Assembly (NCBI RefSeq): GCF_013343235.1 | Contig: NZ_CP040094.1 | Location: forward strand, 4,955,001 to 5,019,000 | Direction of reading: 5' to 3' | DNA length: 64,000 nt | DNA from: Nostoc sp. TCL240-02 | GTDB taxonomy: Bacteria; Cyanobacteriota; Cyanobacteriia; Cyanobacteriales; Nostocaceae | Shown: piece by piece, positions 1,640 through 58,021 of the stretch | How positions within the stretch are numbered: the first letter of the stretch is position 1 | Layout: every line of letters begins with the position of its first letter | Position numbers and translations under genes: made by a program | Notes under the pieces: generated by a model | The model's database searches: none | What the model saw: the letters and a program-made list of their open reading frames with translations, nothing else | What the model was told of the DNA's origin: nothing

Positions 1640-2578
1640 GTGAATTTTCAATCCGTAATAACTTTGTTGCATCACTTCTGGGGTCAGCGCGGTTGTCTCA
1701 TTGCCCAGCCCTACGATATTGAGAAGGGGGCTGGTACTAAGAATCCGCAGACATTTTTAAGAGCGTTGGGGCCGGAACCGTGGGCTGTTGCCTATGTTGA
1801 ACCATGTCGTCGCCCAACGGATGGACGGTACGGAGAAAACCCTAACCGTTTCCAACATTATTATCAGTACCAAGTTTTGATTAAGCCCTCGCCAGATAAT
1901 ATCCAGGAGATTTATCTTGATTCATTAAGGGTTTTAGGTATTCGTCCTGAAGACCACGATATTCGGTTTGTAGAGGATAATTGGGAAGATGCAACGGTGG
2001 GAGCTTGGGGTACTGGATGGGAAGTATGGTTAGATGGGATGGAAATTACTCAATTTACCTACTTTCAACAGTGTGGGGGAATTGATTGCCGTCCTGTGTC
2101 GATTGAGATTACTTATGGTTTAGAGCGGCTGACAATGTATCTCCAGCAAGTGGAGGCAATTACTAAAATTCATTGGACGGACAATATTACTTATGGTGAT
2201 GTTTTTCTGCAAAATGAGATTGAGCAGAGTACATATAATTTTGAAGCGTCTAATCCTGAATTGCTGCTGACACTGTTTAGTTTGTATGAGCAGGAAGCTA
2301 CTCAGTTAACGGAGAAAGGTTTGGTGTTACCCAGTTTGGATTATGTAATGAAGTGTTCGCACACGTTTAATCTGCTGGATGCTAGAGGTGTAATTTCGGT
2401 GACGGAGAGAACTCGTTATATTGCCAGGATTCGGCATTTGGCTAGGAAGGTTGCTCATTTATATGTAGAGCAAAGGGAGAAATTGGGTTTTCCGTTGCTC
2501 AAAGATTTAAAACCAGTCATACCTGTTGGGCAAGTAGAAGTCGCGGCTACACAGACGAAATCTGCCTCCGCAGGTTAG
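1640..2578 (+). CDS. glyQ: glycine--tRNA ligase alpha subunit
   Basis: Alpha subunit of the heterotetrameric bacterial glycyl-tRNA synthetase, which charges tRNA-Gly in the cytoplasm together with GlyS (not in this window). The 312-residue product carries the highly conserved N-terminal stretch with [31 protein letters not shown] and [18 protein letters not shown], all class II catalytic-core signatures. The frame is open from 1520, but I place the start at GTG 1640 ([14 protein letters not shown]). That is where the family begins, it follows a GGGGG-rich ribosome site, and the 1520 start falls inside the rRNA promoter. The last 15 or so residues are a low-complexity Ala/Ser tail. It diverges from the 16S gene and is followed by a clear terminator. 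Confidence 0.95.
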
Positions 2579-54291: not shown

Positions 54292-56130
54292 ATGTTTTTA
54301 CCTAAGATATATAAGAGTTTTCTGATCATAGCTACCGTTACACTCATTACAGTATTGGCAGTTTCAGGATTTGCTAAGACCAAACCTCAACACAATGTAA
54401 TAATTTTCATTACAGATGGATTGCGACCTAGTAAAGTTAATGCTCAGGAAACTCCTAATCTTCATCAAATTCGCCAACAAGGTGTAAGTTTTGTCAATAG
54501 CCATTCGCTGTTTCCTACTTTTACTACCGCCAATGCTTCTGCGATCGCAACTGGACATTATCTCGGTGATACTGGTGATTTCAGCAATACAATTAATGTT
54601 GGCTTTCCTGTCAACAGCGCCAGTAACAGCCCCGTTCCTTTCTTAGAGAATAATGCTGTTTTGGGGGAAATTAGCCAACATTTTAATGGCAATTATTTAA
54701 ACGAAGAAAGCCTATTAGATGCCGCGCGTGAAGCTGGATTTAGTACCGCCGCCGTTGGCAAGGTTGGGCCAGTATTAATTCAAGATGTTACTCAACGAAG
54801 TGGTAAATCCACGATTATAATTGATGATGCCACCGGTTCCCAAACGGGAATTCCTTTGAGTTCTGAAATAGCTGAACTGTTAACAAAAAATGGCATTGCC
54901 TTAAAATCTCCGACGCGAGGAGATAATGGCAAATCTGGTAACAGCACAGTACCAGGCACAAAAGTCGCTAATATATTTCAACAACAATACTTTGCCGATA
55001 TAACGACAAAAGTGCTATTACCTCTATTCAAACAACGGCAAAAACCTTTTGTTTTAATTTATTGGTCACGCGATCCAGATGGAACTCAGCATAACCAAGG
55101 TGATAGTCTAAACACTCTTACTCCAGGGATTAATGGCCCCACTTCACTTGCAGCTCGTCAAAATGTCGATAACAATCTCGGACAAATCCGTGCCGTTCTC
55201 AAACAGCTAAATTTAGAAGCTTCTACAAATATTTTTGTGACGGCCGATCACGGTTTTTCTACCATCAGCAAGGAGAGCAAAACCAGCTATTCAAGAACGC
55301 TTAATTATCCAGATGTGATGAAAGGATTTTTGCCACCTGGTTTTCTAGCTATTGATATTGCTCATGGTTTAGGATTACCTTTGTTTGATCCAGATAAGCA
55401 AAATGCTACGGTTGCTCCAACTCAGGGTCAGTTTTCTAAAAACGGTTTGATTGGTAAAGATCCGAGTAAACCTGATGTGTTAGTGGCTTCTAATGGTGGT
55501 TCAGATTTGATTTATTTACCTAATAGTGCAAATAACAAAGCACTTGCTAAACAAGTTGTAGATATCCTCTTAAAAGAAGATTATGTTAGTGGTTTATTTG
55601 TAAATGATAAATTAGGCTCCATTCCAGGGACTTTACCCTTGAGTGCGATCGGGCTTAATGGTAAATCTCATCTTCCTAGCCCTGCGATCGCAGTAAACTT
55701 TCGGACATTTGATACTGGTTGTGGCGATCCAACTGCTTGCGGCGTGGAAGTTGCAGATTCTTCTTTACAACAAGGACAGGGAATGCATGGCTCTTTTAGC
55801 CGTGCTGACACTTACAATTATATGGCTGCGATCGGCCCTGACTTTAAGAAAGCTTTTGTAGACCGAGTACCAGTGAGTAATGCTGATGTGGCTATTACCT
55901 TAGCTAATACTTTAAATTTGAAGATTCCCCATCAAGGAAAACTTATAGGTCGTGTTTTACATGAATCTTTGGTCAAAGGAGTCAAAAAAGTTTCTTTTAA
56001 ATCTCATACTTTGACATCCCAACCAAGTACTAGTGGATTAAAAACGATCCTGAAGTATCAAACTGTTGCCTCAACTCGATATTTTGATGTTGCTGGTTTT
56101 CCTGGTCGGACACTCGGTTTAGCAAAATAG
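54292..56130 (+). CDS. exported alkaline-phosphatase-superfamily phosphodiesterase
   Basis: A 612-residue enzyme of the type I phosphodiesterase/nucleotide pyrophosphatase family. A signal segment (KSFLIIATVTLITVLAVSGFAK) is followed by metal and nucleophile motifs in order: IFITDGLRPSK (Asp ligand), FPTFTTANASAIATG (nucleophile Thr), WSRDPDGTQHNQGD (Asp and His), FVTADHGFST (Asp-His) and GQGMHGSFSRADT (last His). All expected ligands are present. It probably hydrolyses phosphate esters outside the plasma membrane. The substrate is unknown. No pho box could be recognised. Confidence 0.85.
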   Translation: MFLPKIYKSFLIIATVTLITVLAVSGFAKTKPQHNVIIFITDGLRPSKVNAQETPNLHQIRQQGVSFVNSHSLFPTFTTANASAIATGHYLGDTGDFSNTINVGFPVNSASNSPVPFLENNAVLGEISQHFNGNYLNEESLLDAAREAGFSTAAVGKVGPVLIQDVTQRSGKSTIIIDDATGSQTGIPLSSEIAELLTKNGIALKSPTRGDNGKSGNSTVPGTKVANIFQQQYFADITTKVLLPLFKQRQKPFVLIYWSRDPDGTQHNQGDSLNTLTPGINGPTSLAARQNVDNNLGQIRAVLKQLNLEASTNIFVTADHGFSTISKESKTSYSRTLNYPDVMKGFLPPGFLAIDIAHGLGLPLFDPDKQNATVAPTQGQFSKNGLIGKDPSKPDVLVASNGGSDLIYLPNSANNKALAKQVVDILLKEDYVSGLFVNDKLGSIPGTLPLSAIGLNGKSHLPSPAIAVNFRTFDTGCGDPTACGVEVADSSLQQGQGMHGSFSRADTYNYMAAIGPDFKKAFVDRVPVSNADVAITLANTLNLKIPHQGKLIGRVLHESLVKGVKKVSFKSHTLTSQPSTSGLKTILKYQTVASTRYFDVAGFPGRTLGLAK

Positions 56131-56378
56131 TATACCATTGGTATATTTAAATCTTTGAAACTCTCAAGATTATTTCATTCCCATAAACTAAAGAAAATGT
56201 AGCAATAAATATCAGTAAGTTTCTTCTTGAGAGCATCTCAATAACTCCAACTTTCCCTTACATTTGATTCTTCAAAGCTAGTTACAACGCGCTTTGAAGT
56301 GATTAGCATCACCATTTTTTTGTTCATACTCTTGACATAGTTGATGACCAAAGGTTATAAAACTTTAAGAAAATAAAT

Positions 56379-56587
56379 CAGTCTGCCTAATCCACTACAT
56401 TCCCAACAAACATTTGTAAAGGGTAAACCGGAGCGGAGGAACCAAACCTGGGGCGTATTTTGAAGAAAGTTAAAAGTTAATAGTGAGGAGTTAAAAGTTA
56501 CTAAACTCATAACTCATAACTTTCTTAAGAAGGACATCTCTCAGTCCTAGCCCGTCAGCTAACTTCGTCGGCATTGAGAAGAGACTG
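56379..56587 (+). promoter_or_regulatory. ydaO/yuaA-type (c-di-AMP) riboswitch
   Basis: P1 forms from CAGTCT (56379-56384) and AGACTG (56582-56587). Inside are the conserved GGAGCGGAGGAACC (about 56430-56443), TGGGGCG (about 56449-56455), the stem AGGAC/GTCCT (about 56531-56548) and CCCGTCAGCTAACTTCGTCG (56551-56570), the most diagnostic block of this class. A variable arm (56461-56528) is enlarged by GTTAAAA/ATAACTC repeats that pair with each other. The class senses cyclic di-AMP and usually turns genes off on binding. It lies 160 bases upstream of the glycosyltransferase gene. Confidence 0.85.
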
Positions 56588-56633
56588 AACGAGCAGCATT
56601 CTTAAAAAGTAATGCCTTGTTCTCGTCAGTGTC
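56585..56633 (+). promoter_or_regulatory. possible expression platform of the riboswitch
   Basis: CTGAACGAG (56585-56593) can pair with CTCGTCAG (56622-56629), around an inner stem GCATT/AATGC. This pairing would use the 3' strand of riboswitch P1, so the two structures exclude each other, as expected for a switch. There is no clear T-run, so control could be at another step. Confidence 0.45.
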
Positions 56634-56749
56634 CTTTGGCTGGTAACTTTGCGGTTCGTTGTGCCTGCCCTCGGCCTTGAGAGAGGATAATAATATCTTG
56701 ATTTCTGGCGTTTGAGGCAGGATTATTTACCTTGAGGTGAAAATCAGCT

Positions 56750-58021
56750 ATGTTCCAGAATAAGAAACATCGCATTGCCCTAATTTCTGTTGATGGCGAC
56801 CCGGCGGTTGAAATTGGTCAAGAAGAAGCTGGGGGTCAAAATGTTTATGTGCGTCAAGTCGGTTATGCCTTAGCGCAGCAAGGTTGGCAAGTGGATATGT
56901 TCACTCGTCGTAGTAATCCCGAACAAGCTGCGATCGCTCAACATAGCCCAAACTGTCGTACTATTCGGTTAAAAGCTGGCCCAGCTGAGTTTATCGGGCG
57001 AGATAACTTGTTCCAGCATCTACCTGAATTCATCGAAGAATTCCAGCAATTTCAGCAGCGCCAAGGGTTTCATTACTCCTTAATTCATACCAACTACTGG
57101 TTATCATCTTGGGTGGGTATGGAATTGAAAAAGCAGCAACCCCTGATTCAGGTACATACTTACCACTCTTTAGGAGCCGTTAAATACAGAAGTATTGGTG
57201 ATGTTCCGGTAATTGCAGCCCAGCGATTAGCTGTAGAAAAAGCCTGCTTGGAAACTATAGACTGTGTAGTTGCAACCAGTCCGCAAGAACAGCAACACAT
57301 GCGGATACTCGTTTCCAGCAAGGGAAATATTGAAATGATTCCCTGTGGTACTGATACTGACAAATTTGGGGGAATTGAGCGAAGTGCAGCGCGGGAAAAC
57401 TTGGGAATTGCCCCAGATGCCAAAATGATTCTCTATGTTGGTCGCTTTGACCGCCGTAAAGGAATTGAAACCTTAGTCAGAGCCGTTGGCAAGTCTAGTT
57501 TAAGAGGTGAAGCTAACCTCCAGCTAGTAATTGGTGGTGGTAGCCGTCCTGGTCAGAGTGATGGCATAGAACGCGATCGCATTGCTAGCATCGTGACTGA
57601 ACTCGGATTAGAAAATTGTACAAGCTTTACCGATCGCCTAGATGAAACTGTCCTCCCTTTCTACTACGCCGCCGCCGATGTCTGCGTAGTCCCCAGCCAC
57701 TATGAACCTTTTGGTTTAGTTGCTATTGAGGCAATGGCTAGTAAGACTCCAGTCGTAGCTAGTGATGTTGGCGGGTTGCAGTTTACTGTTGTACCAAAAG
57801 TCACAGGATTACTTGCACCTCCTAAAGATGAAGTAGCTTTTGCTGCTGCTATAGACCGCATTCTTACCAACCCAGCTTGGCGAGACGAGTTAGGTGAAGC
57901 GGCAAGGCAACGGACAGAAATTGCTTTTAGTTGGTACAGTGTTGGATTCCGACTGACTCAGCTTTACACTCGTTTGTTGGCTCAAACTGCACCCAATACC
58001 CAACTCCGAATTGCAGCTTAA
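56750..58021 (+). CDS. glycosyltransferase family 4, sucrose-phosphate-synthase-like
   Basis: A 423-residue GT-B enzyme. The N terminus ALISVDGDPAVEIGQEEAGG followed by QNVYVRQVG closely resembles the minimal, roughly 420-residue sucrose-phosphate synthases of Anabaena, which lack the C-terminal phosphatase domain. The donor site has YVGRFDRRKGIETLV (about 225-239) and the nucleotide-sugar motif PSHYEPFGLVAIEAMASKTP (about 322-341). If correct, it makes sucrose-6-phosphate from UDP- or ADP-glucose and fructose-6-phosphate, a step to an osmolyte and to heterocyst carbon. Other GT4 activities are possible. It has a ydaO-type riboswitch upstream. Confidence 0.75.
   Translation: MFQNKKHRIALISVDGDPAVEIGQEEAGGQNVYVRQVGYALAQQGWQVDMFTRRSNPEQAAIAQHSPNCRTIRLKAGPAEFIGRDNLFQHLPEFIEEFQQFQQRQGFHYSLIHTNYWLSSWVGMELKKQQPLIQVHTYHSLGAVKYRSIGDVPVIAAQRLAVEKACLETIDCVVATSPQEQQHMRILVSSKGNIEMIPCGTDTDKFGGIERSAARENLGIAPDAKMILYVGRFDRRKGIETLVRAVGKSSLRGEANLQLVIGGGSRPGQSDGIERDRIASIVTELGLENCTSFTDRLDETVLPFYYAAADVCVVPSHYEPFGLVAIEAMASKTPVVASDVGGLQFTVVPKVTGLLAPPKDEVAFAAAIDRILTNPAWRDELGEAARQRTEIAFSWYSVGFRLTQLYTRLLAQTAPNTQLRIAA

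Follow-up and report, generated by a model that had tools for sequence, protein, structure and literature searches.

A c-di-AMP riboswitch precedes one clade of cyanobacterial sucrose-phosphate-synthase-like genes and is followed by a candidate strand-exchange module

Cyclic di-AMP (c-di-AMP) is a second messenger known for the control of potassium and turgor. The part of PMC5986932 available to us already attributes to Nelson et al. 2013 the view that cyanobacterial c-di-AMP riboswitches govern genes for osmoprotectant synthesis and transport, so this general claim, which the locus described here shares, is not new. The accessible portion of PMC10117731 cites Mantovani et al. 2022 for the verification of a riboswitch before slr0753 of Synechocystis. 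This riboswitch resembles ours in being a cyanobacterial c-di-AMP leader in an osmotic or ionic context, but slr0753 is a putative chloride-efflux transporter, whereas the target here is a biosynthetic enzyme. The closest described enzyme is Tll1590 (TeSPS), a minimal cyanobacterial sucrose-phosphate synthase (SPS), which is active and for which the available text of PMC7264703 names the catalytic residues that were tested. Within the partly accessible literature on c-di-AMP riboswitches with sucrose or SPS we found no report of a linkage, an earlier mention, for example in Nelson 2013, being possible, and a search for ydaO with Nostoc found none. The specificity for one SPS paralogue, its breadth and a shared strand-exchange module may be new.

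We analysed by computation a 64,000-nucleotide stretch of DNA from Nostoc sp. TCL240-02 (the window), in which the leader and its gene are made up as follows.

56332 to 56361, forward strand: promoter-like pair, TTGACA at 56332-56337 and TATAAA at 56356-56361 with an 18-nt spacer
56374 to 56588, forward strand: c-di-AMP (ydaO/yuaA) riboswitch aptamer, RF00379, 66.3 bits
56462 to 56526, forward strand: insert of variable length in a peripheral stem of the aptamer, composed of heptanucleotide repeats (AAAGTTA five times, AACTCAT 2.6 times)
56734 to 56739, forward strand: Shine-Dalgarno-like sequence GAGGTG
56750 to 58021, forward strand: gene for an SPS-like GT4 glycosyltransferase of 423 amino acids

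An earlier note on this DNA had called a ydaO-type riboswitch here and asked for a covariance-model search, naming the lack of a match as a refutation. The call was borne out. Using the Rfam covariance models, RF00379 matched at 66.3 bits, where the gathering score is 38 (E 3.7e-13 over the window), complete over model positions 1-134, and the three conserved blocks that had been picked out, GGAGCGGAGGAACC, TGGGGCG and CCCGTCAGCTAACTTCGTCG, all fall within the aligned core. The P1 stem is likewise present, 56384-56387 pairing with 56570-56573, and the printed alignment, from which two loops are absent, flags no non-standard pair. This is the sole c-di-AMP riboswitch that Rfam places in the window, and nothing else credible was returned between 56300 and 56800 at E up to 5. 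The leader shares with the RF00379 class the whole aptamer model above the gathering score, the placement in a 5' leader and the closing helix P1. It differs from the class in the repeat insert of its peripheral stem and in a module of about 100 nt, without an Rfam family, which follows the aptamer and recurs in other cyanobacterial c-di-AMP leaders. The length of the insert varies among orthologues, close relatives included, a case of repeat growth inside a functional RNA. When 18 leaders of the genus are compared with the window, identity averages 0.97 for the aptamer core, 0.94 for the linker that leads to the start codon, 0.76 for the repeat insert and 0.67 for the upstream sequence. We infer that the leader RNA binds c-di-AMP.

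The aptamer sits between the promoter-like pair and an ORF that starts 161 nt behind it, both of them conserved, and transcription of the leader is predicted. The -35 element TTGACA is invariant across the 18 genus leaders and TTGAC[AT] is kept in 30 of the 34 leaders examined, the four without it belonging to Laspinema and Oscillatoria; a -10 element with at least four of six matches is present in 24 of the 34. A generic promoter scanner, which requires T at position 6 of the -10 element, returned no promoter between 56131 and 56800. Because the -35/-10 pair is conserved, a transcript beginning downstream of 56587, which the earlier note held would count against its reading, appears unlikely on the evidence of this predicted promoter. 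The GAGGTG sequence is kept or altered in orthologues, for example to ATGGTG or AAGGTT. A type I phosphodiesterase/nucleotide pyrophosphatase-family gene (54292-56130, forward strand) lies directly upstream of the leader on the same strand, and a 16S rRNA gene truncated by the window edge occupies positions 1-1320 on the reverse strand.

The downstream gene had also been described as SPS-like, and the comparison with TeSPS upholds this. TeSPS (PDB 6kih) is the best solved relative of the product, at 450 bits against 210 bits for MshA, with an identity of 52.6% over 403 amino acids; R105, H158, R178, R249, R253, E331 and E339 of TeSPS are all identical in the window protein. In TeSPS, R105 and R178 hold the phosphate of sucrose-6-phosphate, according to the part of PMC7264703 available to us. 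The window protein stays below the cut-offs of the NCBIfam models TIGR02472 (sucr_P_syn_N, 127.7 against 576) and TIGR03449 (MshA, 272.8 against 462.5), so the SPS name rests on the TeSPS comparison. Since the SPS paralogue of the same genome also falls under both the SPS and the MshA cut-offs (148.1 with TIGR02472), the TIGR02472 model may not cover this type of SPS. It is conceivable that the aptamer works as elsewhere while the enzyme makes another sugar, such as a glucosyl-transfer product, so that the link would not be to sucrose itself; GT4 enzymes are hard to name from sequence, both NCBIfam scores are low, and a neighbouring glycosyltransferase of T. elongatus proved to be a glucosylsucrose synthase (accessible part of PMC9909042). 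We regard this as improbable, given that TeSPS is the best solved relative and the tested residues are kept, R105 and R178 among them, and glucosylsucrose would in any case remain a sucrose-derived osmolyte. The product is best described as resembling SPS, a putative enzyme making sucrose-6-phosphate. Where it differs from TeSPS is in belonging to a riboswitch-linked SPS clade, with a riboswitch-free paralogue in the same genome.

That genome was searched as a single contig of 7.89 Mb. It contains one diadenylate cyclase (DAC domain) gene, found at E 3.9e-37, and the organism is therefore predicted to be able to make c-di-AMP. For the S6PP sucrose-phosphatase there is one strong match elsewhere in the genome (306 bits) and three further weak ones. 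The second SPS is 69% identical to the window SPS and has none of the genome's three c-di-AMP riboswitches nearby: these stand in the window, before an ABC permease (C1:3167329-3167565, reverse strand) and before a universal-stress-protein (USP) gene (C1:3163761-3163875, reverse strand). The latter two (loci L002 and L003) are about 3.5 kb apart. The ABC permease passes the NCBIfam nitrate-permease cut-off (TIGR01183, 238 against 209 bits) and adjoins an NMT1-like binding protein, and the ATPase at this locus scores above the ntrCD cut-off. Uptake of the nitrate/bicarbonate type may be within the reach of c-di-AMP.

The nearest named records to the window SPS protein come from Nostoc and Desmonostoc. 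Across the genus the riboswitch was present in 52 of 53 genomes under stricter search filters, with which weak matches were possibly lost. The 87 SPS matches listed for the genus divide into orthologues, with at least 83% identity to the window protein, and others with 70% or less. All 19 listed orthologues (18 full-length and one partial, each in a different genome) carry RF00379 in the same orientation, with its end 160-166 nt upstream of the match start, and none of the 68 listed paralogues has it within 2 kb upstream. Beyond these, 60 of 64 named loci, all cyanobacterial SPS loci, were scanned with Rfam, three distant Bacteroidota glycosyltransferases and one locus with no upstream DNA (L125) being left out; the riboswitch stands directly upstream in 33 and is absent in 27. 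In a tree of 63 proteins, which carries a long-branch warning for L120 and the outgroup, the 34 riboswitch SPS proteins (these 33 and that of the window) form one clade with support of 98/95. The trait requires one change on this tree, and none of 500 shuffles needs as few changes. Scytonema, Brasilonema, Tolypothrix, Cylindrospermum and Goleter are included in the clade, as are the riboswitch SPS proteins of Laspinema and Oscillatoria at 70-71% identity; a second SPS copy, without a riboswitch, is present in Laspinema palackyanum D2a (L109) and in Oscillatoria HE19RPO (L115). A chance match of the aptamer is ruled out by score and conservation. The wider notion, that it stands beside the SPS gene by accident or in decay, is exceedingly improbable in view of the E value in the window, the 34 linked loci in one clade spanning Nostocales and Laspinema/Oscillatoria, and an aptamer that is still above the Rfam cut-off though the protein diverges to about 70% identity.

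Across the phylum the picture is of other targets. The riboswitch was present in 40 of 117 evenly drawn genomes; of the 57 places listed, 30 were available as loci, one of them the window; for the other 29, the first ORF behind the riboswitch was assigned by blastp and clustering. Twelve of the 29 stand before an NrtB-type ABC permease, ten before one permease family (two scanned members are CitMHS-like) and one before a USP gene; six fall outside the clusters, two of which were scanned and are a Na/H exchanger and a cation ATPase. No SPS was found by tblastn in the 29 loci, so the SPS linkage is a trait of a lineage, not a common target of this riboswitch. Nostocales cyanobacterium LEGE 11386 has a head-to-head pair of c-di-AMP riboswitches about 525 bp apart (L086:925-1132, reverse strand, and 1658-1840, forward strand), one leading into SPS and the other having an ABC-permease-type leader. 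SPS-like domains occur in open frames of 1430 and 1282 codons (G014:C94:2127-3350 and G017:C200:45471-46700), which are possible fusions, and stop-interrupted SPS-like copies (G003:C1:2157738-2158853, G008:C66:7179-8261 and L120) may reflect decay of extra SPS copies.

The module behind the aptamer is built from three short strands and two hairpins.

56379 to 56383, forward strand: strand A (CAGTC), the 5' side of the P1 extension, which pairs with 56583-56587
56583 to 56588, forward strand: strand B (GACTGA), common to the P1 extension and H1
56584 to 56630, forward strand: predicted hairpin H1, ACTGA 56584-56588 with TCAGT 56626-56630 and CGAG 56590-56593 with CTCG 56622-56625
56622 to 56625 and 56626 to 56630, forward strand: strand C (CTCG, TCAGT), the 3' arm of H1
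56638 to 56669, forward strand: hairpin H2, GGCTGGTA 56638-56645 with TGCCTGCC 56662-56669, 85.7% of cells paired

The earlier note had expected an alternative stem using the 3' strand of P1. An alternative stem does exist, but the conserved one does not use the P1 core strand: it is GACTG(A) at 56583-56588, in the P1 extension, that pairs with TCAGT at 56626-56630. Strand B can thus pair back to CAGTC (A), extending P1, or forward to TCAGT (C), forming H1. A GGCATT/AATGCC stem, perhaps the one first meant, was rejected; by eye it is lost in Laspinema and weakened in several Nostocales. With leaders grouped by tblastn, and the Laspinema and Oscillatoria leaders included among the 31 distinct SPS leaders, an AGTC-type strand A precedes P1 under a strict pattern in 31/31 SPS, 28/30 ABC-permease, 9/17 unclassified and 0/2 USP leaders. 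Strand B finds a far partner in single-sequence folds of 31/31, 29/30, 15/17 and 2/2 of the same groups; shuffle controls do so in 65 of 310 SPS, 66 of 300 ABC-permease and 41 of 170 unclassified cases (21-24%) and in 4 of 20 USP cases. Over 76 distinct stretches the fold z averages -2.2, with a stretch pattern that covers the leaders other than those of Laspinema and Oscillatoria.

The most telling sign for strand exchange is the variant USP leader L003, in which by eye all three strands are altered together (A=GGGT, B=ACCCC, C=GGGGT); the USP leader L157 shows a similar joint change with a wobble, so that the whole-helix change is seen at two loci of one gene family. Laspinema keeps the hairpin with other letters (AGATC...GATCT), its inner stem being shifted in register, again judged by eye. 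The covariation counts for H1 are mixed, and the double-change measures are without a clear excess. In the H1 pairs 88.6% of cells are paired, against 33-59% in slid controls. Nine double-change cells were counted, a number reached by 1 of 500 shuffles and equalled or exceeded by two slid controls; three pairs carry double changes, which 284 of 500 shuffles reach, and the further pair types are reached by all 500. H1 is missing from the structure that RNAalifold gave for an alignment covering both orders. A criterion of at least eight H1 pairs was dropped as not discriminating (shuffles pass it in 156/280 and 246/480 cases), and among the H1 criteria only the pairing of strand B separates leaders from shuffles.

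These strands suggest how the leader may work. With c-di-AMP bound, P1 and its extension (A:B) would close and H1 (B:C) could not form, while without the ligand H1 and H2 would form. The SPS gene would then be switched off by the ligand, and c-di-AMP would act as a brake on one of the two sucrose-phosphate synthases, with translation or leader stability rather than termination as the output. We lean towards this reading of the SPS leader as a whole. The search for intrinsic terminators over 56131-56800 found no terminator-like site, and a T-run (at least six in eight) together with a stable C:D fold, meaning that the stretch between strand C and the T-run folds at or below -5 kcal/mol, is found in 0/33 SPS as against 24/36 ABC-permease leaders; the T-run after strand C by itself is present in 5/33 and 28/36. 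A looser hairpin-plus-T scan gave candidates in 9/30 'SPS' leaders, a set that included the ABC-type leader of L086 and was without the Laspinema and Oscillatoria leaders, and in 25/54 others, mostly weak or misplaced by eye. In the ABC-permease leaders a T-run and fold follow strand C, which suggests that H1 could act there as an antiterminator with ligand-induced termination, that is, OFF; the terminator-like hairpin of this group is weak, at about -6 kcal/mol. Cyanobacteria are not known to have Rho. For this reason, and as the SPS leader has no U-run, its output is more likely to lie in translation or RNA stability. Single-sequence folds of 16 leaders gave little or no sign of Shine-Dalgarno release, the site being mostly paired with or without strand B and the largest change being 0.12 to 0.25. 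Pairing of strand D with the Shine-Dalgarno or start region, and of ACCT with AGGT, was also considered and no consistent partner was seen in Nostocales. In Laspinema an 8-bp anti-Shine-Dalgarno pairing, ACCTCATG with CATGAGGT, was noted by eye.

The OFF direction is drawn from the precedent of the class and from the ABC-permease leaders, and on our analysis it seems somewhat probable. An ON switch, through which c-di-AMP raises this SPS and a salt-driven rise in c-di-AMP increases sucrose, would agree with the physiology: in Anabaena sp. PCC 7120 c-di-AMP is higher after salt and not after sorbitol (PMC5986932), salt induces the solute sucrose in cyanobacteria, and disaccharides build up in salt-exposed Nostocales (PMC6753628, PMC3610870), each as given in the accessible parts of these papers. 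The SPS leader is also without a terminator, unlike the ABC-permease leaders, so its output could be inverted. Yet the class members whose direction is stated, kimA and ktrAB of B. subtilis, repress (available part of PMC7288161), and a related module stands before other genes where a terminator-like arrangement would give OFF. We consider an ON switch unlikely, though a serious candidate. Under the usual OFF logic, a salt-raised c-di-AMP level would lower this SPS, not raise it, and the rise in Anabaena does not fit a scheme in which salt raises sucrose through an OFF switch. Another alternative is that the main product of the leader is a free small RNA that has a function of its own, with SPS expressed by read-through from it. 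The Synechocystis region before slr0753, reported to carry a c-di-AMP riboswitch (PMC10117731), is listed as the sRNA-mRNA unit Ncr1680/slr0753 (PMC5386190), as far as the accessible parts of both papers go. The window leader has no terminator, however, and the near-constant 160-166 nt between aptamer and start in 19/19 genus orthologues suggests control in cis, so we give a small-RNA role little credence and keep to a cis-acting OFF switch.

A model of the module (R1) was built from 23 SPS modules and run on 49 loci. It carries the RNAalifold structure and not H1, making it mainly a sequence model, so that its matches show sequence conservation and H1 was judged by separate folds. Besides both SPS loci given, R1 matched 23 of the 36 other aptamer loci with E no higher than 0.001, a number that rises to 25 when E up to 1 is allowed. 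ABC-permease leaders scored up to 73 bits, and none of 11 aptamer-free SPS paralogue or glycosyltransferase loci was matched; in the Nostoc genome itself it found the SPS and ABC leaders and not the USP leader. By eye, eight of the 11 R1-negative aptamer loci (L134, L141, L147, L151, L160, L162 and both USP loci) have hairpins at this place that differ in sequence, and L142 has a weak one. L146 and L156 have no H1 hairpin, and their start codon follows 8 nt after a purine-rich GGAAGGAG aptamer tail, a layout that is possibly the simplest translational form of the switch. The ATG after GGAAGGAG is in frame with the permease ORF, for which the mechanical call begins at an earlier in-frame ATG. 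We tentatively propose, giving it somewhat less than even chances, that many cyanobacterial c-di-AMP riboswitches share a post-aptamer strand-exchange module (A:B versus B:C, then H2) regardless of the downstream gene. This would make c-di-AMP a common brake on NrtB-type ABC uptake, on ion and anion permeases and on one SPS paralogue, and in the SPS branch the terminator U-run would have been lost in favour of translational or stability control.

The earlier note had proposed that c-di-AMP tunes sucrose synthesis at this locus, and position and conservation point the same way: c-di-AMP probably sets the amount of this SPS enzyme. The finding names one enzyme, in identifiable organisms, through which c-di-AMP could directly set the synthesis of a compatible solute. 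With two SPS paralogues, of which one clade has the switch, it becomes possible to test whether c-di-AMP plays a part when soil cyanobacteria respond to salt and drought, and the shared module offers a concrete, mutable model for how cyanobacterial c-di-AMP riboswitches may act.
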